Source of the DNA: Mesaphorura yosii
Lineage: Eukaryota > Arthropoda > Collembola > Poduromorpha > Tullbergiidae
Assembly: GCA_009869945.1 (NCBI GenBank)
Contig: WIXG01000523.1
Coordinates: 1-43,477 of the forward strand
Reading direction: 5' to 3'
Length of the DNA: 43,477 bases
Part shown: in pieces, positions 9,797 to 42,402 of the stretch
Numbering within the stretch: position 1 is the stretch's first letter
Layout of the letters: every line of letters starts with the position of its first letter
Notes under the pieces: model-generated
The model's input: the letters and a program-made list of their open reading frames with translations, nothing else
Databases searched by the model: none
Told to the model about the DNA's origin: nothing
Position numbers and translations under genes: made by a program

Positions 9797-10570
9797 CTCT
9801 TCCAGTCTTCTTCAAGTCAGTAAATCAGTTCTCTCACTTTACTGCTTAGTGCTCGACAGTGCTCGAGGGTGTTTCGAAGTCTGAACTGAAAACTGGAGCT
9901 GGATTCTCCATATTTGAATCGACTCATCCTGGTCGATGGTTTTTCTATTTTGCAAGCCATTTCGAGTTGCCAATTCAAAAGATTGCATTCGTGATTGTGA
10001 TTAGATCAAGTGTGCTAAAATATTCGCAATCGCAAATGCGTGCAGGTGTAGGAGGCTTCAAGTTCGTGGCGTGCAGTGCAGCAGTGCTGTGGTACGATGG
10101 TAAAATCCATTATTCATGATTCTCTTTAATTAATGATCTGTCTATTATTTTAGCTTTCAGCATTCAAGGTCAGAGTCCGCGTCTCTGCGCTGCGTTCGGT
10201 CGACGTTCGAGTTAAAGGCAAAAGGCTGGCTGGAAAATTGCGAATTCTTTGCTGGCTGTTGACTGCTGACACGCACTTAACAATTATCATGCAATCACAA
10301 GGTTCAAGCATCCAATTATGGACATACCTGACATGTCCACATGCCATCATTTATCATGTTCGACGTGCTTGTGCTTGCAATTAATTGCAATTGGGGCTGA
10401 TGGTTGATTGCTGACTTAATTAATTAACGATTAACGACTACGACTTGCACTTTTCTGACTACTGCACTGGCTTCAATTATTTATTTTGTCTTCAGTAAAC
10501 CGCTCCGCTCGCTTCATGATTTTTAGTTTTGCTGCTGCGTTGCGCGCAGTGACAGTGATAGGAATTTTTT
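9797..10570. other. Intergenic, AT-rich
   Basis: Upstream region of the PI-PLC-like gene and 3' flank of the first DM4/DM12-like gene. No gene is recognised; small open frames at 9859-10119 and 10150-10350 lack any supporting feature. Confidence 0.5.
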
Positions 10571-12080
10571 TTACATTCGCATTCTCGCGTGTTTGCTGAT
10601 GAAGCCCGGAAAATTTGTCTGTGGAAGCTGGCCACATTGCTGATAACGTTTCTTACAAACCCCGGCGGCTCTTCCCGTGATGGCGGCGTTGGAAATCTCC
10701 ACCAGATGCTCCTTCATCGATGCCGGGCCGTACTTTCGGGACATCATGTTAAGAATCTCTTTGCTGAGTGCAGATGCAAAAAGGACACAAGAGATTTCAC
10801 GAATCAGCAATCAGAACTTCGACTTCCTAACTCACGTTTTTCAAGTTACCTGATCATTCTGCCCACTATTTGCCCTTGACTCGGCTCCAGTTCACTCGCC
10901 AGAATGTGATTTGCTCTGCAAATAGCGTAGAGACTGCAATTGAGTGGTGCGACAGAGTCAAGCACCTGTCCAATGCGAATCTGAAAGAATTTCATCACAT
11001 TTCAGGATAAAATTCGTGTGAGCTGGGTATTTAACGCGACGCAAGCAGAGAAGACGACAGCTTGCGAGATGAACTTACGAGATGTGGAAGGATATGAAGC
11101 GTGACTCTGTCAACATCGACGTCGGGACGATCCGTGTCAGTATCATCGGGAAGGCCGTCCACCACAACAGTATTTAGATTTTGGTCGGCATCGGCATCCC
11201 GTTTTCTTCTACCCATTGGCGCGGCCGTGGTTGACGTCAGCTGCTGCAAAACGCTCTGCAAAAAAAGACAACAAGCGAAAAGCGATTAGACTACTTCATG
11301 CGTCGTGTCACAATAAAGTTCAGATTCGATTAGCGAGTGAGTGATTAGCGTAGTGAATTACCTGCAGGAATGACATCAGCCCCAAGACTCCAAGAAGCCC
11401 AAGCGCCGAATTGCAGTCTTTCTTCCTTCAGGCAGGCAGGCAAAAAAATGAAATTGACTTAGAATCGGACCGAGTTCAATCAAACACTTAAGCCAGGCTC
11501 ACCCGTGTCCGTGCCCACCTCCGCCACCTCCTCCTCCATATCCGTATCCTCCTCCATGGCTGCCTGCAGATGCGTATCCTCCAAATTCCTGATTTACTGC
11601 TATTCCCGTGTCCGAACCTGAAATTCAATGTGGAGATTTCAAAGGCAGCGCTCGCCGTTCAGATTTTAACAAAAAATCTTAAAGCGTCTGCCGAAAGAAA
11701 AGTTGTTCTGTATGTTTGCTTTGAGGCTTACTTCCGTATCCGTAATCGTTAATCGACACGGCAGCGCTCTGCAGGCTATTCGATGCGAGTGGAGTCAGGC
11801 TCAATTGACGTGCAGGGCGTCCAAATCCAAAATCTGCTGCTGTGGCCAAATTCGGGTAGCCTCCAGCTCGATTCCTGGCGGCGGCTGCAGCAGCGGCGGA
11901 GCTGCTCCCGTCGTAATCAAACTGAATGTACTTCCATTGATTTTCTGTATTGTCGTTACTGTTGACGCCGATGCTCTTTTGCGCTGACGCCGAGATTATG
12001 GGGACGATGAAGAAAATGAGGATCCAGACGGTCAGAGCAAGCAAACGTGTGCTGCCGTCTTTGACGTGATTGCGATTCAT
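10571..12080 (-). CDS. Secreted DM4/DM12-like precursor, paralogue 1 (342 aa)
   Basis: Six exons (12080-11732, 11617-11503, 11425-11362, 11255-11079, 10980-10850, 10763-10571), all in phase. An N-terminal hydrophobic signal (LALTVWILIFFIVPIISASA) is followed by a variable region with an Ala run and a Gly/Tyr/His-rich stretch. A short apolar segment DCNSALGLLGVLGLMSFLQ comes next, then a furin-type site RRKR (residues 192-195). The C-terminal product would be about 147 residues. It has four Cys with C-x5-C (NCSLYAIC) and C-x6-C (CKKRYQQC) spacing, similar to the DM4/DM12 domain of arthropod secreted proteins. The assignment to that family is inference from spacing. The adjacent gene at 12858-14372 is a tandem paralogue on the same strand. 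Function unknown; a cuticle or extracellular role is possible. Confidence 0.8.
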
Positions 12081-12857
12081 GATTAGTATCGCGTAATTCT
12101 ACACCAAACTTTGGTCGGGCGCGAGAAAATTGTGACTGCTCCATTTAAACCGGCGACGACCACTTTTATAAGCGCCTTGCACCTGAAACAAAAGCGTAGC
12201 GTGCAATTTTTGTGTGTCCTCGCAATTTTCGGTCACAGAGCCAGTCGCAAACGATCTTGTAATTTTGTAATTACTGCTTTAATGTAATGTGGGATTTATT
12301 GTACTACGTGAACGGCTGACTAATTGGGTGGTAACAGCACAATAGTGTTCATGTGCAAGTGAATTCCAAGAGACTACATACGAAAACAATCACAATTATA
12401 ATGCGAATACGAAGCAGAAGGCAAAGGCAGACGAATTACAGGACTAATTCTGAGGATTCTTCACATTCGCATTCGCAATTCAGAATTCACGACCGTTTTG
12501 TTTTGCCGTTTGCTGTATTGAGATTTGAGATTACCGTTAATGCCATAAACCCCTAACTCAAACCCAGCACGACCACGGCCACGGCCATGCTGTCATTATT
12601 CATTCTTTAGTGTCTGGTCCCAAAATTAACCAAGCGCATCGTTACCGCCGTCTCGTGGGACGGAGCCCAAACAATGAATTGCCAGTTGTAAATTGCTTGA
12701 CAGATTGACGGGCGACGCGATGGGGAACCGTAAACTTAATTTTTCTGTTGTATTCTCTTACTATTCGTGAAATACTGAATGAAACAAATCAAGTCGGTCA
12801 ATTTTTATTTATTTTCCCCACTGCAATGTGCTGCGCTGGTTTAAATACAAACTTCTG
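12081..12857. other. Intergenic between the two tandem paralogues
   Basis: Contains the TATA-type promoter of paralogue 1 and otherwise AT-rich sequence. No further gene is seen. Confidence 0.5.
12163..12170 (-). promoter_or_regulatory. TATA box of paralogue 1
   Basis: TATAAAAG on the minus strand, 83 bases before the ATG. This leaves room for a start site about 30 bases downstream and a short 5' UTR. Confidence 0.6.
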
Positions 12858-14372
12858 TTAGCCAAGCCAAGAAGGAAACGAAAATTTGAGGCCCGGCCAC
12901 GGCATTGAAGTCAAGACTGAGCCTGCGCCTGAGCCCCGCCTGCCGCACCGCAATTTCCGGTACGCATCGCAAGTCTGTGTTGTCCGTCCGACATGTGCGG
13001 CATTCGCGATCTCTCCGAGCATCTTCTTGTTTTTCGGCCGGCCGTACTTCCTGCCCAGCATGTTCATGACGCCGTCGCTGAGCATTCGCCCGATGAAGTG
13101 GCCCTGCCCCGTCCCGAAGGGGATTTCTTTGACGAGGAGTTTGTTGGCAGAGCAAAGCGCGTGCATGCTGCAGTTGAGCGGTGCGGACCCGTCCAGCACT
13201 TGACCAATGCTCATCAGGTGTGGGATGATGTGCAGCGTTATCTTGTCAATGTCCATGACTGGGCCAGGCTCGGCCTCAGCCTGGCTGTCGTCCAAGTCTC
13301 GTTTCCTTCGGCCGGCTGGCGCCCGTGTAGTCGTCATTTGACGTAGAATGTTCTGGACACCAAGGGAAAATTTATACCATAGCCATAAGTCATAACTCAA
13401 GGATGCACGCCCGGACAAGGAAAGAGCAAGTTTTTCAAGACGTTACCTGCAGAAAGCTGACAAGCCCGAGCATTCCAAGGAGCCCAAGCGCAGAGTTACA
13501 ATCTTGCCTACGAAATACACGAAATACAAGCGGAAATCAGAAATTAATGCCATGGCCGGCCGAAAAATCAAGAAATTTTGGAATTTCTAGGATTTTGGAG
13601 AGGTTCCTGCTCTAGTTTGGTTAAATTCTGTACGCATTGTTGTTGTTTGAATTTCTGAAATTTAGGCTTATCGGCTTGTTTAGACAGCACATCACTGGAA
13701 AAACTTGCTCTTTCTCGTGCCAGACTCTCAATCAGACTTATCAGACTTTAAAGTACCTGAATTAGTGACAGCAGAGCCAGGAAACCGAGCAGGCCGACTG
13801 CTGACGAATTCACGCTACGGCGAAATTGTAGCAGTTACAACAATTTTGGCTTGGCCTTGACGTCTTTTTTTTTTGTATTCTTCTTCGTCTACTTACCCGT
13901 GCCCTCCACCTCCACCATGCCCGTGCCCATGCCCTCCTCCGTGGGTCCCGGCCGACGCATAGCCTCCGTACTCGATTTCGTTTCCATACCCATAATTATT
14001 CGCTGCCTCCGCCTGCAAATTGGTTGCAGTTAGTGAATTCAGCTGGCGGGCGGGTCGCTTGCGTGTGCGTGCTTGGGCGTGGCCGTGACCGTAATCAGGC
14101 TGGTCTAAAATCAAAGTAAAAGTAAAAATGCAGATAAGTAATTAAAAGAGTGATATCGAACACTTTTGTAACACCGAGTATTTGTCCAGCTTACACTTAA
14201 TGACGCTTGGAATCAGTTGACTGGAGCCGGTCGCGTGATCGAATTGTAAGTATTTCTTCATTTCTTGTCCACACGCGGGTGGAGGCAGATGAATGCAGCA
14301 GAAACAGAAAAGCACGAACAAGACTTCAAGAAGGATGGGTCGCTTCGGCGGCTGACTTCTGTACACGACCAT
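12858..14372 (-). CDS. Secreted DM4/DM12-like precursor, paralogue 2, alternative exons
   Basis: Exons: 14372-14195, 14104-13897, then either 13814-13757 or 13507-13447, then 13352-12858, giving 312 or 313 residues. A signal peptide (LLEVLFVLFCFCCIHLP) is followed by a Tyr/His/Gly-rich region, the alternative apolar segment and a furin-type RRKR site (residues 163-166). The mature part, about 146 residues, keeps the four-Cys pattern of paralogue 1 (NCSMHALC; CDAYRKLRC) with strong similarity around GRM, NM(M/L)xRKYG and EIxNAA. Its last exon corresponds to three exons of paralogue 1, so introns differ. The two middle exons both enter in phase 2 and leave in phase 0. Joining both, or neither, gives an early stop, so they must be alternatives. 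Function unknown. Confidence 0.8.
13420..13436 (-). promoter_or_regulatory. Intronic pairing element, arm 2
   Basis: On the plus strand this reads gaaagagcaagtttttc. It is the exact 17-base reverse complement of 13698-13714. In the pre-mRNA it starts about 10 bases after the 5' splice site of exon B, so pairing with arm 1 would enclose exon B. Confidence 0.7.
13447..13507 (-). other. Alternative exon B of paralogue 2 (61 nt)
   Basis: Encodes QDCNSALGLLGMLGLVSFLQ after the shared Gly. It is closely similar to the constitutive exon 3 of the neighbouring paralogue and includes the Cys. Flanked by TAG and GTAACG. If read after exon A it stops at its fourth codon (GCA AGA TTG TAA). Confidence 0.75.
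13698..13714 (-). promoter_or_regulatory. Intronic pairing element, arm 1
   Basis: On the plus strand this reads gaaaaacttgctctttc, perfectly complementary to 13420-13436. It lies about 42 bases downstream of the exon A donor, in the intron between exons A and B. Confidence 0.7.
13757..13814 (-). other. Alternative exon A of paralogue 2 (58 nt)
   Basis: Encodes VNSSAVGLLGFLALLSLIQ after the shared Gly. It is homologous to exon B but lacks its Cys. Acceptor CCGTAG and donor GTACTT. The same entry and exit phases as exon B show origin by exon duplication. Confidence 0.75.
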
Positions 14373-15023
14373 TTTTATGGATCCCGAGCGGACGCTGCCT
14401 GACTGACGACTGATCTGTCCTAATTTCAGTGCTGAAGTGTTTTATAACACAGCCAGCCAGGCCAAAGTCACTGCCAACAAAGAGGACGGCTGACATGGGA
14501 AGTAATTCACTATTCACTGATCACTGCATTGGCTTGAGTTTTATCACGCACTTGCTTTACTGCATTGTTGAATTAAAGTACAGTTTACCAGTTTACGCTG
14601 TGAATGATGTCATTGTTGTCGCTGCGCTGTCGTGTTTTGGGTTTAACATTTAATTGTACGCGTGTAATTGAGCTTGGCTTGCAAATTTCAAGTTGACAAA
14701 CTTTAATTGTCCTTGAATTATACAAATCCCAAATTTGCGAAGATGCGCAAATGCACAAGAATAAAAGTCACATCAGACGTCAACAGTCAAGATGTTCCCA
14801 AAATAGCAAGACCGCAATCTCATGGCTCACACAAACACAGATGACATTACCGTTTTGTTTTGTTCTTTCCTGTGCATTTGTGTTTTGAAAAGCTAGTTCT
14901 TTTACGAAATCTACGAAATCTCGCGATTTTATTGACCAAACATGGTTTAACAAGGCTTAACAAGGCTTAAAGCTCGAATTAAGCCAGAAAATTCACTTAT
15001 CACCCCTTCAAAGTTTCATCGAC
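14373..15023. other. Intergenic between divergent genes
   Basis: Separates paralogue 2 (minus) from the Ser/Arg-rich gene (plus). It contains the TATA box at 14441; nothing else is recognised. Confidence 0.5.
14441..14446 (-). promoter_or_regulatory. TATA box of paralogue 2
   Basis: TATAAA on the minus strand, 69 bases before the ATG, closely matching the arrangement at paralogue 1. Confidence 0.6.
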
Positions 15024-23693: not shown

Positions 23694-26600
23694 CTAATTT
23701 AGCTTTAACTTGTTAATCACGTCGATTTTCTGTCGGACGACCATCTCGAGCACTTTTTCCCATTTTATCACTGAAAAAGACAGAAAAGGATTCAAAATAA
23801 GTTAAAATCTGCATTAATCTGCACGGAATGCAATAATTGACTTTGACTTACCGCACGGGTTCGACAGAATCGACTTGAAGAGGTGTGCGTCCTCTTCGCA
23901 GGTAACCACAAAGAATTTGGTCGAATTTTTGGCACTGTTGAGGATCGCCTTGACGGACTGAAACTCAATCACGCGGCCCCCGGCGGACTGGACGATTTCC
24001 TTTAGTGAGGCTCTACTGGGCTGCACGTTGGGCGAAAGATAAAACACGAGGTCTTCGAGCAACTGGTTTCGACGTGGCATTCTCAGAATTGCGGGCAGGT
24101 CGACGTCGTACAGCGTGCTAAACATCGAGTCCTTGATCATGTACGGGGCAGCGTCGACAAATTCGTCCTTTCCGACGCAGGCGATGACCCACTCAGTCGA
24201 GACGATGTAGGACGCGTGGCTCAGGCAGCAAAAGAACTTTTTCGTGTACGCGTTGTCGAGGAGGACGAGGATCGAAGTTTCTTTGGGGGTCTCCGTGATC
24301 CGAGCACCGAGCTTCTCAAGCTTCTGCTTCGTCTTGTCCTTGACTGCTTTTGAGCCGCCAGAAAGCATGACGATCGGCCCCGTCTGCACAGGCGGCCGTC
24401 TGAAGAGCGGAATTGTGATCGGGATTGGCACGACCGGAACGACGGAAGGCTCCTTCGTTGTGTCGTCTGCAGCAGTCTCAGGCTGGGTAGTCTGAGCTTG
24501 GGATTCTGGTTCTGATTCTGGCGCGACTGCGGGTTCCGTCTTGATTTCGGCCACTGGCGCAGAAGTCGAATTGGCATTAGCGTCGGCATTGGCTTCAGCT
24601 TCGCTTTCGGTCCCAGGCTCTGTCTTTATCTTGGCGGGAGTTGGCGTGGGCGTAGAATCTGAAACGGCCCCACCTTCGCTTGCGGGTTGTTCCTCCGAGC
24701 TTGAGCTTGGATCTGTTGGAGTGGGAGTTGGAGCAGTTTCAGGTGCCTGTGACTGTGACTCTGACTGCGTAGAAGGCGCTCCGGCTCCAGGCGTTGGAGG
24801 TGCAGAGCTTGGCTTTGGCATTTGTGCTGGCGTTGGCGCTGATTGAGCAGCCGATGGATTGGGCGTGGAGGGCTCAGACTTCTGCAAGGGGATCGGGACC
24901 ACTTTAGGAGGAGGCGAGAGCCGTTGCAGGTACGCTTGCTCCTCCAGCTTCATTTTCTTCGCCGCGCCACCGTCTTCTGGCCGTTCTGGCCCCGGCAAAG
25001 GCAGTGCCCGTTTCCGGCCCTTGAATTTCTCCATGCACTCGTTGCTCACGCGAATCGGGCTCTTCCAGGCCGCCATGAGATGCACGATGGGCGCAATATC
25101 AAACCGGAACGGCTGTTCCGTATTAAATTGCTGATACTTTGGGCTGTGGATCATTTGCAGGAGCGTCGCGGTCGGGCCGAACATGAGCTCGTTCAGAAAC
25201 TGGACGTTGATGACCGGCTTCCTCCATTCGCGAGCTTTCTGGTACTTTTTGCCTTCGGGCTTCAGGGCGACAAGTGCCAGGTTGGATTTCGTAAAGTAAC
25301 TCGTGAGCTTAGCGCCAAGGATTTTCAGCATGTTGCAAAGCCGAAGCTTCTCGTCGCCTTTGAATCCCGTCGTAGAGACTATCTCGCCTCGGAGCGGCCT
25401 GTCCTTGTCTGCGAAGGGCACGGGGAGGTGGATCGAGTAGAAAGGCGCGGAGACGACCCGACGAATGCAAATGTCGCTGAGCCAATGAAAAGTGACCACT
25501 CGCTTCCCTTCCCGGAGCGCCTGAGTGAATTCCCGAAAGTTCTGCGAGTCGGACAGCACGTGAGTGAGTCTCATGCTGTACGCTTCATCAACCTCGCCTC
25601 CGCACTTCAGCACAATCTGCCGCCAGTTTGGCGCGTCGGGGTTGGGGAAAGGCGCCCAGAACGTGCAGCCTACGAGGAAGCCGTCGAGCGGGATTTTGAC
25701 GCTCGGGTCGTGCCCAACGAATTGGTGAGGCCGTGTTGCGGCTGCGATCGCCTGCGCTGCCCCGGCCGGCATCCGTGGCTTGCCGATGGCTCCCGCCGCG
25801 AGCTGGGCTGCGGCAGCAGCTTTGGCGGCGCTTGCTTGATTCTTGCGCTGGGCCACAAGCGATTGGCGTGGCGTCTTTTGCGTTGGAGTCGTCGGCGTTG
25901 TGGGAGTCTGCGGCGGGGTTTGTGGCTGGTACATCTGAACCTGAGGTGAGCCAGGAACTTGTCCTATTTGGCCCTGTGCTTGCCCAGGGCCAGGAAATCC
26001 CGTCCCAGGCCCGGGGCCGACGGCGTGGGTGGGCGAATCGGGGACGTTGTTCCCTTGCAGGCGTGTGTTGAGCATGTTGGCCAGCACCGTCTTGGTCTTG
26101 GAGTGGATCTGTACGGGAATGCCTCCGTGCGGGTGGCCATGCTGTTGCTGTTGCTGCAATTGCTGCTGCTGTTCAGGACCCAGTCCCTGGCCCGGACCTG
26201 CACCAGCGCCTCCTGGAGAGTACATTATACCTACACCGTGTGGACCAGCACCTGCTCCAGGACTCTGCCCACGAATATTCCTCGCCTGCATCTGTTGCTG
26301 CAGCTGCATGACGTTCGGATGAGTCTGCTGCATTTGCTGCTGCTGTTGTGGGTCGGCTCCGGATCCAGGCCCCTGACCGACTTGGCCCTGAACCTGACCA
26401 CCGATCCCCACGCCCACGCCCATTCCTGGACCTCCTGGCCCACCAGATATTCCCATACGAGCTCCCTGCGCCTGCATTTGCATCTGCTGTTGCTGGAGGA
26501 GTTGTTGGCCTCGAATTAATTGACTGCCGCCACCGCCTGGAGGGCCAATCCATTGCTGCTGTTGCTGCTGCGCACCGCCTGGCGCATGCTGACCTGGGCC

Positions 26601-29600
26601 CGTGCCTCCGACGCCTGTCGGTGATTGTGGGATGCCTCCCATGCCAATGCCGCCGATGCCACGCATTCCCATCGTCTGCACTTGCACTTGTGGGTGGAGT
26701 GGGCTACCTGGAGGCACCTGTTGCTGTTGTTGTTGTTGTTGCTGCTGCTGTGCATGCAGGAGCTGTTGTCTTTGCTGCTGCTGATTGACAGACATGGGCA
26801 TCTGCTGCTGCATTCTGTAGGGAAGCCCCTGCCCAGGCCCTTGGCTGACTTGACCCTGCCCAGGCCCTTGGCTGACTTGACCCTGCCCAGGCCCGGGTTG
26901 GCCCTGCTGCTGTTGATGTAACATGACTTGCCTCACGTTAAGCCGCTGCTGCAGGAGTTGTGGAGTGAGAACCTGCTGCTGCTGCTGAGGGCGAATAATT
27001 CCTCCTCCGCTGTGATGCTGCTGGCTGATCATCTGGCTCTGAGAATAGCTCATCTGCTGTTGCTGCATCAGGTGCTGAGCGCCCTGGGAGTGCTGCCCGT
27101 CTTGAAGCAGCAGCTGTTGCTGTTGCTGCTGCTGCTGCTGGTGCGGGTGTGGGTGCTGTGGCGAATGAGAATTTTGCGAATGCTGGTTGGGGTGCCCGAG
27201 CATCTGAATCTGAGGCGGAGGGCCGGGCCCAGGCTTGTTCGGCGGCATCCCAACCTGAACCTGCACCTGGTCGCCCTGGCCGTGGAAGTAGCCGAGGCCG
27301 AGCCCCTGTGGGGTTTGTGGAGAAATCCGCTGCTGCTGCTGCTGCGGCTGCATGCCCATTCCCATGCTTCCAACGCCAACGCCCAAATGGTCATCCTTTT
27401 GCTGCTGCATTTGCATGCCGCCGTGCTGCTGCGGTGGCTGTTGGCCTTGTCCCTGTCCCTGCATTTGTGGCGACTGGGGCACATAATAATTTTGCTGCTG
27501 CTGCTGTTGAGGCGGCGGCTGCATTCCGCGCTGTGGGAACGGGGACATTGGGCTCATAGGCGACTGCGGGGCGGAGTGGACGTACTGCTGGCCTGGGCCA
27601 GGGCCCTGCTGAACGGAGTATCGAGGTTGCTGCTGAGGCGGCATGTGACCGTGACCAGACACTGAAACCGGGCTGCCAGGCGGCTGCTGACGGTAAATCT
27701 GCATGTGGATGCTCGTTGGAGTGTTCATGCCCTGCTGCATTTGCTGCTGCTGCTGCTGTGGAGGAGGAGGCCCTCCTTGATAACCCTGCATTTGCTGCTG
27801 CTGCTGCATGCCTTGCCCAGCCCCCAGCTGGTGCTGCTGCTGACTAGGAAATGGCCGACTCCCGCCGCCTGGACCGCCTCCGGGACTCATCTGCCCCTGG
27901 AACACTTGCATCGGCGACTGCCCAGGAGCGGGACGCCCCGGTCCTAGTCCTGAGCTCTGCATCGGGGGCTGTTGCTGACCGCCGGGACCGGCAAACATGT
28001 GCTGCTGCTGCTGGTGTTGGTGGCCGTGTGGCGAAGGCATGCCTTGCTGAACGGTCTGCTGCTGCGGAAAATGTTGACCTTGGCTCACGCCCACACCAAC
28101 GCCCACACCCACACCCTGAAGCCCTTGCTGCTGCCCCTGCATCATGTGCTGCTGCTGTTGTGGATGCATCTGGCCACCCACGCCCATTTGTCCAGCCTGC
28201 CCTTGCCCGACGTGCATCATTTGGTTCAATTGCTGCCCCTGCAGCATTTGGTGTTGACCTTGCCCGTGCTGCTGCATCATTTGCTGCTGGCCAAGCCCCA
28301 TCGGCCTCTGTCCCGGCACCATCATTTGCTGCTGCTGTTGTGGCTGTGGCCCAGGCCCGGGTCCCATGTGCATTTGGCCCATCTGCCCTCCGTGAGGCCC
28401 CTGTCCGTGCATTTGGGCCGACTGGCCCATTTGCTGAGGGTGCATCGGTCGCTGCCCGCGCACGAGTTGAGACATTTGGCCGATTTGCTGCTGGTGCGGT
28501 TGCATTGGACGATGTTGCTGCTGCTGCAAATGCTGTGCGGGTCCTGGTCCCATCTGCATTTGTTGGCCCATTTGGGCAATTTGCGGCCCCGGCCCTGGTC
28601 CATGATGCTGTAACTGCTGCTGCATCATTTGTGGCTGGGCACTATGGCCGTGGCCGCCACCGCCGGGCTGACTTGTGGGACCGACATTCATCATCTGCTG
28701 CTGCTGATGAGAAATTTGCCCGTGACCGTGGCCCAGCGGACTGTGACCGTGACCGACGCCCATGGGGCTATGCATCTGCTGGTTGGGCGACCCAAGCTGT
28801 GGTTGGCGCTGCGGGCTAGGGCTGCTCATGGCGATAGACACGACCTGGCCCGCCTGCTGGACAGGTTGGCCGCCAGGAGTCATCGGCATCGGATGTTCAG
28901 GGCTCTGAAAACCTGCTCCTGTCCCGGGCCCGACGCCGGTTGGAGTCAGTGGCTGTCCCATTTTATTCATCAGGCGCTGGTCTTGCAAATTTTGCTGTTG
29001 CTGAATTTGTCCAAGGCCGCCAACACCAAGTTGGCCTCCTGTATTTTGCATGCCTAAGTTTTGTTGTTGCAAATTGATATTCTGTTGGCCTTGTAAATGA
29101 TGCGGTGGCTGTTGCTGCTGCTGAACAGTTGGTATTTGTTGAGTGTGGCCCTGAAAATTCTGCTGTTGTTGGGCCTGGGCCGCCGCCGCCTGCTGTTGTT
29201 GTTGTTGTTGTTGTTGCAGCTGCTGCTGCTGCTGTCGAACGAGCATTTGCCTCCGTAGCTGTTCATCCCGATGCTTCTGCGCCAGTTTCTGTACGACCAG
29301 CGCCCGCTGCTCGTCGTCAATCTTTTCCCATTGGTCTTTGAGGTCGGGATTGCTCTTAATGTAGCGTACAATCTCGAGCTGCTCCTGCGGAGTGGCGACG
29401 GGGTGAAATTGAGGCCGAGGCGCCTGTGGAGTGCTGGCGCTGGTGCTTGGCGTTGGCGTGTGAGGAGCAGAACCAAAAGACGAAGTGGTTGACGTGAACA
29501 TGGCTGGTTTGGGCTTCGTAGTTGGAGTGCTTGGCGTTGATGCCTGTGCCTGTGCAGTATTTTTGAGCTCCAACGCCCGCATTTTTGCGGCGACTTGACT

Positions 29601-30370
29601 CGGCGTGAGCACGAATTTCGGGTGATAAATGGCAGCATCTTGCAGGCTCCCGTTCTTGATCGAGTCCGTCACCCAATCGCTGCAGACGATTTTTATCCCC
29701 GCCCTCAATGCTGCTTGGTACATTTTCCCTTCGCAAGTGTTGGTGACTACATGAGTGGTCGATCTCATTAGGTCCCGGTTGAATGTCCCACCGTAGTACG
29801 TTACATTCGCCCACAAGTGTTTCAGATCGTCGCCTTTGATGCCAGAAGGTGTGATCGAAACTTTGGAGAAGAGCTGGTTGTTTTCGACGCTGAATCCTGC
29901 CACTCTGAACATGAATGAGCAACCAGGAACATAAATTAGCGATCTTAGGTAGCAAAAAAGCTAAAAGAAAATAAATAATTATTTTGCAACATTTAACTTA
30001 CGGAAGAACTTTTCCAAGTCTGCAAGAATACTCGACCCAGCTTGGTTTAACAATTGGAAGATCGAAAATATCACGAGCTTCCTCAACTTTGACTTCCAAA
30101 GCATCGGGCGCTGCGATAAAATGAGTCACGCCCATCCCGACGTAGTTTCTGAACTTGGCTCCTCCACTTTCGAGTAATTTGATAATCTAAATTTAAAAAT
30201 CAACCATTAACTAGCGTTAAATTAAAGGGAATATCACCAAATGCCTCTTATAAGATGCCTCCCAATATTTTAGAACTTACCCTTGGCTCAACGGAGCCCG
30301 AAACGCAAAATGAAACTTCATTAAAGAGTCGCTCCGACAATTGGTCCACGTCGTAGGGGAAAATGTCCAT
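23694..30370 (-). CDS. PTIP/PAXIP1 homologue, six BRCT repeats (2134 aa)
   Basis: Four exons (30370-30281, 30186-30002, 29904-23852, 23770-23694), phases agreeing. PTIP is a nuclear adaptor that links DNA-damage signalling (53BP1, gamma-H2AX) with the MLL3/4 histone H3K4 methyltransferase complex. BRCT1-2 span about residues 10-195 (VSFCVSGSVEPRIIKLLESG; KPSWVEYS; CSDWVTDSI). A Gln/Pro/Gly/Met-rich stretch follows to about 1400, with many CAG/CAA runs. BRCT3-4 lie at about 1495-1670 (FHWLSDICIRR) and BRCT5-6 at about 1905-2134 (STEWVIACVGKDEF; the last block completed by the small final exon, VIKWEKVLEMV). An acidic Ser/Thr/Pro linker precedes the last pair. Insect PTIP proteins are similarly long and Gln-rich. 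The second exon completes BRCT1, so the N-terminus is well supported. Confidence 0.92.
26000..29240 (-). repeat. Coding Gln-rich (CTG/CAG-type) low-complexity tract in PTIP
   Basis: Interrupted poly-Gln runs mixed with Pro, Gly, His and Met make up about 1,080 codons. The plus strand is dense in CTG and GCTGTTG strings. A 27-base minisatellite at 26827-26895 (two full copies, one partial) encodes a repeated PGPGQGQVSQG-type unit. Confidence 0.85.
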
Positions 30371-39892: not shown

Positions 39893-41801
39893 TCAAGCAA
39901 GTCCTTCGCTTTTCTTCTCCTTCACTACAGGCTTCTTCTGGCTGAGCGCCTGCAAATCCATCGCGTGTACACTCGACCGTCGTCTGGCAACCACCGACTC
40001 AATGTTCCCCACCTTTTCAAACATCTCCTCGTCCTTCGTCTCCGGAAGTAGGAGGGCAACTCCACCCGCAATCATGGCCACCACACCGATGACCACCGAC
40101 GACATTTCTGTATAGCCAAACTTGGCACGGACAACGTACGGAGCTGCCATGGAGCCAATTCGCCCGAAAAGGACCGCCAGACCAAGTCCAGTAGAACGTG
40201 CTTCGGTCGGGTAAAGTTCGGCCCCAAGCAGGATGATGACCGCCGTTGTTCCCGAGACGAAAAGCTTCGCGACCATGGCGAGAGTAATCCGAAGTGCCGA
40301 AAGTTCTACAAAAAAAGAAATTCATCTTGCAAATTTTGTGCAGAGGGTGCCAGTGTAACTCACCAAGCGGCACGAATGCAATTGCAAAGTACGCAACCCC
40401 AGCGAAAAGAAGTGTAGACACCGTCGTAGGCTTCCGACCCCAAAAGGACACGAGTGGAATACAGCCCAAGTAACCCGGGACTTCCATGAGTCCCCCGAGG
40501 AACACGATGAGGAAAGGATCCGAGCTGAGTGATGGAGACCCGAATGAGACGCCGTAGTAACAGAACGCGGCCGCCATGTACAAAAACCAGATGAGGAAGG
40601 AGCGCTGACGAAGCTCGGGCGTCCGGACTAAATTCATGTATGAAGTTAAGAAACGCTTCAATCCATAAGCCCATGTTTGCTGTGTGGCGGTAGCCGCCGT
40701 TGCAGTCTGCGTTGGAGGCTGGCAAGTTTCTTCGAGTATCGCTTTCAACTGAGCCCGCTCCGGTGGAGGCTGTTTTCGGTTACGCGCTGCGATTCGCTGG
40801 AGTGTATCAAGCGCCTCTTTCTCGCGCCCGTTCTGTGCTAGCCAACGGGACGACTCGGGCAGGAAAACAAAGTAAAGGAGAAGAGGGAGTGAAGAGAGGG
40901 CGAATGCAAACGAGAGTTGAGACCAGTGGCGGATGAAGTACGCGTAGAGCGGCAGAAGCATGTAGAAGAGGGCAAACGAGACTTCGGTCATGATTCCTAG
41001 TCCCGCCCGCCACGAAGTGTCCGTGTACTCCATCAGAATCGTGAAACTGTTCTGATTCGCTCCTGCTGCTCCAACAGCGATTGCGAAACGGCAGAGGATG
41101 AAGAGCTCGTACGAGTTTGCGTATGCGGTCAAGAATCCAAAGACGACCATGAGCCCAAAGCAGAGCAACGAAGTACGTCGACGACCCAAAAATTTGTCTG
41201 ACACTGCACCGAGCACGAGGGAGCCGAAGAAGACGCCGGCCATGTACGTCGCGTGAATTGTGGCCACGAGATGCTTGCGTTCACAGACAAGATCGAACTC
41301 CGTGACGATTGTCGAGACGTACGTGGATCGGTCGTATTCCCAAAACACGCACGGTTTTGTTGTCGGAGTTATGGGCAGGCGGTGAACGGCAGCGCGGGCG
41401 TCCTCAAATCGTGGCGTCTTACGCACCATAGCAGCATAGTCCAGGTCGTAGTATTCGCATTCGGCTCCTTCTGGAATGGCAACGACCTTGATTTGCGCTG
41501 GACTCCAGTCCGTGGCGTTGGCAAGTTCGGGAATGTGGCACCAGTGCCCCGGTGTCGCGCCCAAGTAAATGTAACCAATGTTTTGGAACACGTACATTCC
41601 CCTCTGCGACAGGGCAACAAAGACAAGGAAAAGGTTACCATCGAGTTCAAGAAATGGTTGGAGCCGTTGACTGACCTGAAAAGCGACGATGAGGAGCAGA
41701 AGCCATTGATAAAGACCGTGACCTCCGATGAGTGGAAAGACGCGGTCAAAACCTTCAAAGTTCTGCTGTTTCTCCGAGTCGGCAGCGATTGTGCCCGTCA
41801 T
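39893..41801 (-). CDS. SLC22 organic cation/anion transporter (592 aa)
   Basis: Three exons (41801-41676, 41603-40364, 40305-39893). The first intron is 72 bases, a multiple of three with no stop, so unspliced RNA would add 24 residues in frame. Evidence for splicing is that GHGLYQWLLLLIVAFQ should run directly into the MYVFQNIGYIYLGATPGHWC region, as in the family. SLC22 features: a large first extracellular loop with Cys, STIVTEFDLVCERKHL, GSLVLGAVSDKFLGRRRTSL (the MFS motif A region), LPESSRWLAQNGREKEA after TM6, and ELYPTEARSTGLG near TM11. Twelve membrane helices are expected; the family moves organic cations, carnitine or anions across the plasma membrane. The substrate cannot be told. 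Confidence 0.9.
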
Positions 41802-42402
41802 TTTACCAACCTGCGTTTTCTGGTTTGAAAGTAGTATGTACGGTGGCTATGGTGAGAGTATTTCGGCATGGACCAGTGACAAGAGAGATGAGAGACGAGA
41901 AGACAAATGGACATTCTGATTATGTTAATGGCTTGCTTTAATTAAGTGATTGATTGAATGACCGTTTAACTGGACGAGGTCGCCTGTGTGACTCTCATCA
42001 ACTAAATTGACTCAATTGGCTTCTGTCTTGGTTTGCCTTTCCTTGCTGCTGGTCAGTTGACTTGACAAGGACAAACGCAAAAGACCAGGCTGCTCATGAA
42101 ATGCTAATTTTATTCATTCAGTCATACCAAGCACATATGAGAAATAGATTAGAAAACAAAAGGAAACAAATGCCAATTTAGGTTTAAAAAAATTCGAGAT
42201 CTGAATCAAAAATTTGAATTTAGAAGATATTTAATCTAATTTAATTTAATGCAATCATGAGATCAATAGTATAGCACATGATTCGATCAAAATATGCCAT
42301 GGCCTCCATCGATTCGACAGTGCAGAGCGAGCCGATGCCCACGCCCAGCGCAGGGAACGACTTTAGCTCGAAGAGAGTCTCCTTCCCCTTCTTTCTCCAC
42401 TT
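41802..42402. other. Intergenic between SLC22 and the membrane-protein fragment
   Basis: AT-rich, with the SLC22 promoter side and the 3' flank of the next feature. No gene is recognised. Confidence 0.5.

Follow-up and report, generated by a model that had tools for sequence, protein, structure and literature searches.

A candidate RNA-paired choice between two homologous exons in a gene of the springtail Mesaphorura yosii

How is one of two neighboring homologous exons chosen when transcripts containing both, or neither, run into an early stop? This question is raised by a gene on the minus strand of contig WIXG01000523.1 (Mesaphorura yosii, assembly GCA_009869945.1), in which exons A and B lie between exon 2 and the last coding exon, designated E4, and in which the introns on both sides of exon B carry complementary segments. 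All positions refer to the window, i.e., the complete stretch of 43,477 nucleotides analyzed (positions 1 to 43,477 of the forward strand), and are compiled in Table 1.

Table 1. Positions of exons, stem segments and tandem paralogue in the window
Feature	Positions	Strand	Description	Basis
Exon 1	14195..14372	-	Start codon, hydrophobic N-terminus	ORF continuity, GT/AG borders
Exon 2	13897..14104	-	Gly/His-rich pro-region, phase 2 end, donor CGG|GTAAGT	
Exon A	13757..13814	-	58 nt, VNSSAVGLLGFLALLSLIQ, without Cys	
Stem extension, upstream side	13715..13725	-	Imperfect, outward	
Upstream stem arm	13698..13714	-	Selector-like, starts 42 nt past the donor of exon A	
Exon B	13447..13507	-	61 nt, QDCNSALGLLGMLGLVSFLQ, sole Cys of the pro-region	
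Downstream stem arm	13420..13436	-	Docking-like, starts 10 nt past the exon B 5' splice site	
Stem extension, downstream side	13409..13419	-	Imperfect, outward	
E4, last coding exon	12858..13352	-	NILRQMTTT, presumed furin-type GRRKR, four-Cys helical domain, stop	
GRRKR codons	13299..13313	-	Within E4	Read from sequence
Tandem paralogue	10571..12080	-	Start to stop codon, without exon A, without stem	
Single B-type exon of the paralogue	11362..11425	-	KKDCNSALGLLGVLGLMSFLQ	

Gene layout and coding capacity of exons A and B

On the minus strand, the gene is arranged in the order exon 1, exon 2, exon A, exon B and E4. The coordinates of exons A and B and of the stem arms had already been given in a preliminary description of the locus, and all of them proved to be right when the sequence was read with its AG and GT borders. 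Exons A and B are each bounded by AG and GT, entered in phase 2 and left in phase 0. Joined translations yielded 312 aa with A alone and 313 aa with B alone, and they reproduced the claimed stops for the remaining combinations: joining A to B results in Q-ARL-stop and skipping of both in G-TFYVK-stop. A and B thus represent adjacent homologous exons of 58 and 61 nt with the same phases and 10 of 18 aligned residues identical, for which the frame is kept with either exon alone and broken with both or neither. At the coding level, they are mutually exclusive. Comparison with relatives, presented below, strongly suggests that exon B is coding sequence and lends modest support to the same status for exon A; presumably, both are used in transcripts.

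Two other causes of exclusive splicing were considered and dismissed. Steric exclusion by too short an intron does not apply, since the A-B intron comprises 249 nt and introns of 59-114 nt are presumably spliced in this family. Incompatibility between minor and major spliceosomes was likewise rejected, as the donors read GTAAGT, GTACTT and GTAACG, the acceptors end in AG, and no U12-type donor was recognized by eye in comparison with the U12-type consensus.

The encoded protein consists of a hydrophobic N-terminus, a Gly/His-rich pro-region, a variable apolar segment, the GRRKR motif, which we take to be a furin-type site, and a four-Cys C-terminal part. Both the cysteine in exon B and the GRRKR downstream of it, to which the preliminary description had drawn attention, are real. 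For E4, AlphaFold2 predicted four longer helices and a short one of low confidence (mean pLDDT 71.6, pTM 0.60, 7 sequences).

Further open frames were observed elsewhere in the window. A single frame of 2048 codons at 23814-29960 on the minus strand features an extremely Gln/Gly/His-rich middle and BRCT-like ends and presumably resembles PTIP, and a frame at 1275-1931 on the plus strand contains three to four near-identical, coiled-coil-like repeats of 18 residues (unit SSKVDSKFESLSEKIDIR). A transporter encoded at 40017-41846 returned a single protein at E <= 1e-60 (65% identity over 46% of the query; 7995 candidates scored), and a COX1 search of the assembly gave no match.

Family members, the lone cysteine and the age of the exon pair

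A first protein search at E <= 0.01 returned five relatives, namely P0001 (isoform X2) and P0002 of Folsomia candida and P0003 of Allacma fusca, both of them springtails, as well as P0004 and P0005. An alignment search among the 7987 candidates sharing most words added Folsomia P0006 and P0007 and returned P0004 again. Of the Folsomia gene LOC110845084, isoform X2 was covered here; isoforms X1 and X2 of LOC118436609 differ in a 42-aa insert located outside the variable exon. For three Folsomia gene identifiers, no literature was found. Within the window, the tandem paralogue is similar in layout to the main gene, but it possesses a single B-type exon and lacks the stem. The alternative exon is hence present in just one of the two adjacent copies. 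Moreover, three more tandem family genes are apparent on contig 37 at about 303-309 kb (L025 3400-9600); in all three, the variable segment is encoded by one exon without a cysteine codon. In the paralogue and in the three contig 37 genes, this segment lies within one exon ending CAG|GT.

The nature of the C-terminal domain was addressed by database searches. A fold search of solved structures with the predicted domain gave no match at E <= 0.001, and a profile search of solved structures gave 11 weak matches, the best of them (E 0.0017) to a ribosomal protein, which are not believed. No family protein scored above a Pfam cut-off. For DM4/DM12 (PF07841), with its curated cut-off of 22 bits, the four-Cys C-terminal domains of P0002 (18.0 bits, 228-297) and P0003 (14.8 bits, 187-259) remained below threshold, and the other five of the seven proteins scanned, among them the E4 protein of the window, showed no match to this family. 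At other places in the assembly, four clear DM4/DM12 matches were observed. Rfam yielded no match at the gathering threshold for 10400-14600.

The preliminary description had called exons A and B homologous, which is upheld here, with the correction that they appear to be old homologues. Over the last 18 codons, A and B share 26 of 54 nucleotides; B and the paralogue exon share 39, together with 16 of 18 residues, and the agreement of B with Folsomia P0001, and likewise with Allacma P0003, amounts to 15 of 18 residues. Because A and B are more distant from each other than B is from the paralogue exon, the pair does not result from a fresh duplication, and the two exons probably diverged long ago. 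This long-past divergence and the single B-type exons of other genes were missed in the earlier reading. Between exon A and the paralogue exon, 31 of the 54 nucleotides agree; for the exons of the contig 37 genes, the corresponding counts are 35, 34 and 30. The BLOSUM62 sums of exon A amount to 48-57 with the seven cysteine-free peptides versus 43-47 with the four cysteine-bearing ones, and its identical residues to 10-11 of 18 versus 10 of 18; the cysteine-free P0002 scores 57 with B. These values suggest a modest leaning of A toward the cysteine-free exon set. Furthermore, at least half of the differing nucleotides are at third codon positions in all eight family exon pairs compared (e.g., A-B 16/28, A-C37_1 11/19, A-C37_2 10/20, B-paralogue 10/15), which fits coding exons under constraint.

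The cysteine itself shows a simple distribution. In the region before the furin-type site, minus residues 1-40 (assumed signal region), exactly one cysteine, located at the exon B site, was counted in four of nine proteins (isoform B, the paralogue, P0001 and P0003) and none in five (isoform A, P0002, P0004, P0005 and P0006); the count included neither the genes of contig 37 nor P0007, which is another isoform of P0006. This tally is partly circular, because the exon types were told apart partly by the same residue, and the point that is free of circularity is that the pro-region has either one cysteine, always at the exon B site, or none. Conservation of an unpaired cysteine may point to covalent linkage with a partner, for example in a dimer.

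According to PMC9013439, tandem exon duplications are frequent in animal genes. Judged from the comparisons above, the simplest history of the pair would be an old exon duplication, with A subsequently lost from the paralogue; alternatively, A could have been captured or have changed fast.

Rarity, folding and position of the intronic stem

The exact 17-base complement between the introns flanking exon B was confirmed; at 95% identity, it extends to 20 nt. The assertion that it is unlikely to arise by chance also held, since a perfect complement of 17 nt occurred in none of 60,000 dinucleotide shuffles of both introns, the longest being 16 nt, found once. In the complete window, perfect inverted repeats with a gap of at most 700 nt were counted 7, 1, 1, 1 and 1 times at lengths of 11, 12, 13, 14 and 17 nt, and the means of 60 window shuffles were 5.8, 1.5, 0.43, 0.17 and 0.03 at lengths of 11 to 15, with none longer. 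The counts at lengths 11 to 14 are thus near the shuffled expectation, indicating that there is no general excess of such repeats. Of those with at least 13 nt within 700 nt, the window contains three (13, 14 and 17 nt) and 29 kb of contig 37 none. The one of 14 nt, with the core GGCCGGCC (13030-13043 and 13554-13567; shuffle mean 0.17 per window), is second in length only to the stem and lies in the same gene, where it joins the A-B intron with E4 coding sequence.

The arms do not stem from a repeat element. Within the assembly of 93,006,257 bases, the exact 17-mer was found at these two places only, which rules out transposable-element arms. Allowing one mismatch added five further places, the reversed control pattern having one, and a search with 67 nt that include the upstream arm (62 nt matched) returned only the query itself.

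In terms of energy, the stem is less outstanding. One in 1500 shuffles attained its helix energy of -27.6 kcal/mol (Gumbel p 0.0003), and 4 of 3000 attained the RNAduplex energy of the whole introns (-56.0; Gumbel p about 0.01). When 1724 segment pairs of equal size along the window are ranked, the latter value falls outside the 25 lowest, which all reach -83.1 or lower and many of which fall in the GC-rich part. Among the 92 helices listed in 7 kb, the stem ranks fourth by helix energy; the three ahead of it are GC-rich, belong to the same gene and are formed by 13494-13479 (exon B) with 12937-12922, 13559-13546 with 12906-12893, and 13567-13554 with 13043-13030. The first two of these include GU pairs; all three were set aside on an estimate of chance. 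The exceptional feature of the stem is accordingly the length of its perfect pairing and not its energy.

Folding of the RNA placed 16 of the 17 core pairs in the minimum-energy structure of a 791-nt segment; 15 of the 17 had a probability of 0.99 or more, and the mean probability of the stem pairs was 0.95 in both this and a 1263-nt fold. Forcing the downstream arm into the single-stranded state cost 20.1 kcal/mol in the shorter and 17.9 kcal/mol in the longer fold. The duplex described earlier is exact but incomplete, as the RNA stem extends imperfectly outward by pairing of 13725-13715 with 13419-13409, including GU pairs and one single-base bulge per strand. Together, stem and extension comprise about 27 bp with -39.0 kcal/mol. 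The extension was equalled by 150 of 20,000 shuffled flanks and by 324 of 20,000 random window flanks and hence is modestly unusual. Regarding the splice sites, stem formation frees the donor of exon A in just one of the two folds, and the donor of exon B has a mean unpaired probability of 0.31 when the stem may form versus 0.47 and 0.44 when the arm is kept from pairing.

A second stem looping out exon A was sought and not found; the best helix between intron 1 and the A-B intron comprises 8 bp (-11.7 kcal/mol). On the docking side, the next best partner does not exceed 7 Watson-Crick pairs. A 10-bp helix of intron 1 with the last intron, which includes GU pairs and would loop out both exons, was set aside; its energy of -14.6 kcal/mol is close to the shuffle mean for the A-B and last intron pair (-14.7). 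Perfect 9-nt tandem repeats adjoin two splice sites, at 13731-13748 after the exon A donor and at 13510-13528 in the exon B acceptor tract, and possibly represent protein-binding sites or slippage.

The position of the stem relative to the splice sites was evaluated against 20 introns from five family genes of this genome, covering part of the contig 37 gene introns and with borders set by eye. Nineteen of these are 59-114 nt long, and the A-B intron alone falls outside this range. With the downstream arm ending 67 nt before the E4 acceptor, closure of the stem shortens the splice distance from A to E4 from 404 to 109 nt. Based on a leave-one-out matrix of the same 20 introns, which is a small matrix, acceptors scored 2.6 bits for exon A and 6.5 bits for exon B, and donors 6.8 and 5.5, respectively. 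In our reading, exon A needs help, and the stem would supply it by placing A at the usual distance from E4.

Exon choice: proposed mechanism, alternatives and known systems

Based on these results, we propose with moderate confidence that exons A and B form a two-exon mutually exclusive cluster of the downstream-docking-site kind, reduced to its minimum, in which the stem loops out B and selects A. The gene product is predicted to be a secreted protein occurring in two forms that differ by a single cysteine. Pairing of the selector-like site past exon A with the docking-like site past exon B through the 17-nt core would enclose exon B in a loop of 261 nt and bring the donor of A to within the usual family intron length of the E4 acceptor, so that A would be joined to E4 and B skipped. 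With the stem absent, late or unwound, the better-scoring acceptor of exon B would take exon 2, and B would be joined to E4; transcripts with both exons or neither would fall out of frame. As the exon chosen sets the presence of the lone pro-region cysteine, one gene could make both cysteine forms, which elsewhere in the family are apparently made by separate genes. The preliminary description had suggested that pairing loops out B and favors A. As physical chemistry, looping-out of B is well supported by pairing probability, the cost of 18-20 kcal/mol and the splice distance; control of splicing by the stem, the means of its opening and the role of the cysteine are what we infer. The weak point of the proposal is how A would be kept out of transcripts that contain B: with a single stem and no second partner, the model itself does not explain the skipping of A, and only the low-scoring acceptor of A and the frame shift were found to act in this direction. 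A wider interpretation, put forward tentatively and itself rather doubtful, sees in one gene with one stem and two cysteine forms a surviving one-gene-two-products state of a family that elsewhere split the exon types between gene copies; in a compact genome, the stem would act mainly by bringing the longer splice back to an ordinary intron length.

Several other explanations were weighed against a selecting stem. Any pair of introns forms many helices, and three of those in this gene are lower in energy than the stem, yet chance complementarity is very improbable given that 17 nt were never reached in the shuffles and that the window expectation has already dropped to 0.03 at length 15. A serious, albeit unlikely, candidate is that A and B are truly alternative, with the choice made by splice-site strength and protein factors, and that a replication template switch, by copying 17-20 nt in reverse complement, left the stem behind as a neutral trace. 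Such a switch can create a perfect stem in one event according to PMC8794818, and the higher acceptor score of exon B would agree with a choice by site strength. However, since perfect inverted repeats are not in general excess in the window, template-switch events do not appear to be common here; moreover, the stem sits in exactly the two introns flanking exon B, and its GU-containing extension is unexplained by a single 17-nt event, although it could be older decay.

Exon A might also be dying or little used, with B effectively constitutive and the stem irrelevant. The presence of only a B-type exon in the tandem paralogue, the low acceptor score of A and its modest likeness to other family exons point in this direction, but its frame and borders are intact, and in comparison with each of the other five exons, third positions account for at least half of the differences; we regard a decaying exon A as improbable. 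A slightly lower probability still is assigned to an action of the stem on exon B by other routes than promotion of the A-E4 joint, i.e., back-splicing of B into a small circle, masking of its donor or service as an RNA editing target. A circle of 61 nt would be very small, and the shortening to 109 nt fits the A-E4 joint better; on the other side, the downstream arm begins close past the B donor, which is less unpaired with the stem present, and the review PMC11802352 connects complementary flanks with the formation of circular RNAs.

If the stem indeed controls the choice, the locus would offer a very small complete test case with two exons and one stem in about 550 nt, and RNA-paired exon choice would extend to a springtail gene that is not among the cases of the papers cited here. 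The locus would then also be relevant to the question of whether duplicated exons and duplicated genes can replace one another, since cysteine-bearing and cysteine-free segments occur both within one gene and in separate genes. Among the papers listed in literature searches on RNA-paired exon choice, mutually exclusive exons in springtails, two-exon clusters, and exon versus gene duplication, this gene did not appear. New here are the pairing probability of the stem, the shortening of the splice distance, the age of the exons and the cysteine pattern of the pro-region.

Compared with known systems, the locus resembles most closely the arrangements with a downstream docking site. A docking site in the intron after the variable cluster is described for the insect genes 14-3-3zeta, Mhc and MRP1 in PMC6071210, and selectors 3' of their exons for exon 4 of Coleoptera Dscam1 in PMC8042237; the M. 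yosii gene correspondingly has a docking-like site in the intron after its last variable exon and a selector-like site 3' of the exon to be chosen, with the intervening exon predicted to be looped out. It differs in possessing two exons and one selector without selector competition, and this springtail gene is not named among those cases in the portions of these sources used here. Intronic complements behind the exon to be chosen and behind the whole cluster were found, but several competing selectors were not, one long partner being present; having a single selector lowers the claim of full membership in the docking system and not the likeness. By our reasoning, two exons with a docking site on the right would need one selector, and one was found. 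Exon 4 of Drosophila srp, as described in PMC6071210, also consists of two alternative exons governed by intronic pairing, which is bidirectional and involves two pairs of complementary elements; here, one pair was found, and as a second stem was not, the cluster is not of this bidirectional kind. Loop-out by inverted Alu elements, covered in PMC11802352, likewise encloses one exon between complements, whereas here the arms are unique 17-mers and not repeats, and a homologous exon exists as an alternative to the one in the loop. Exclusion by frame shift and nonsense-mediated decay shares the early stops of the double and the empty transcript, but it removes wrong products and does not choose between A and B, and decay is an assumption in this gene. 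Against this background, the A/B pair is a credible and very small case of the known RNA-paired exon choice, newly described.
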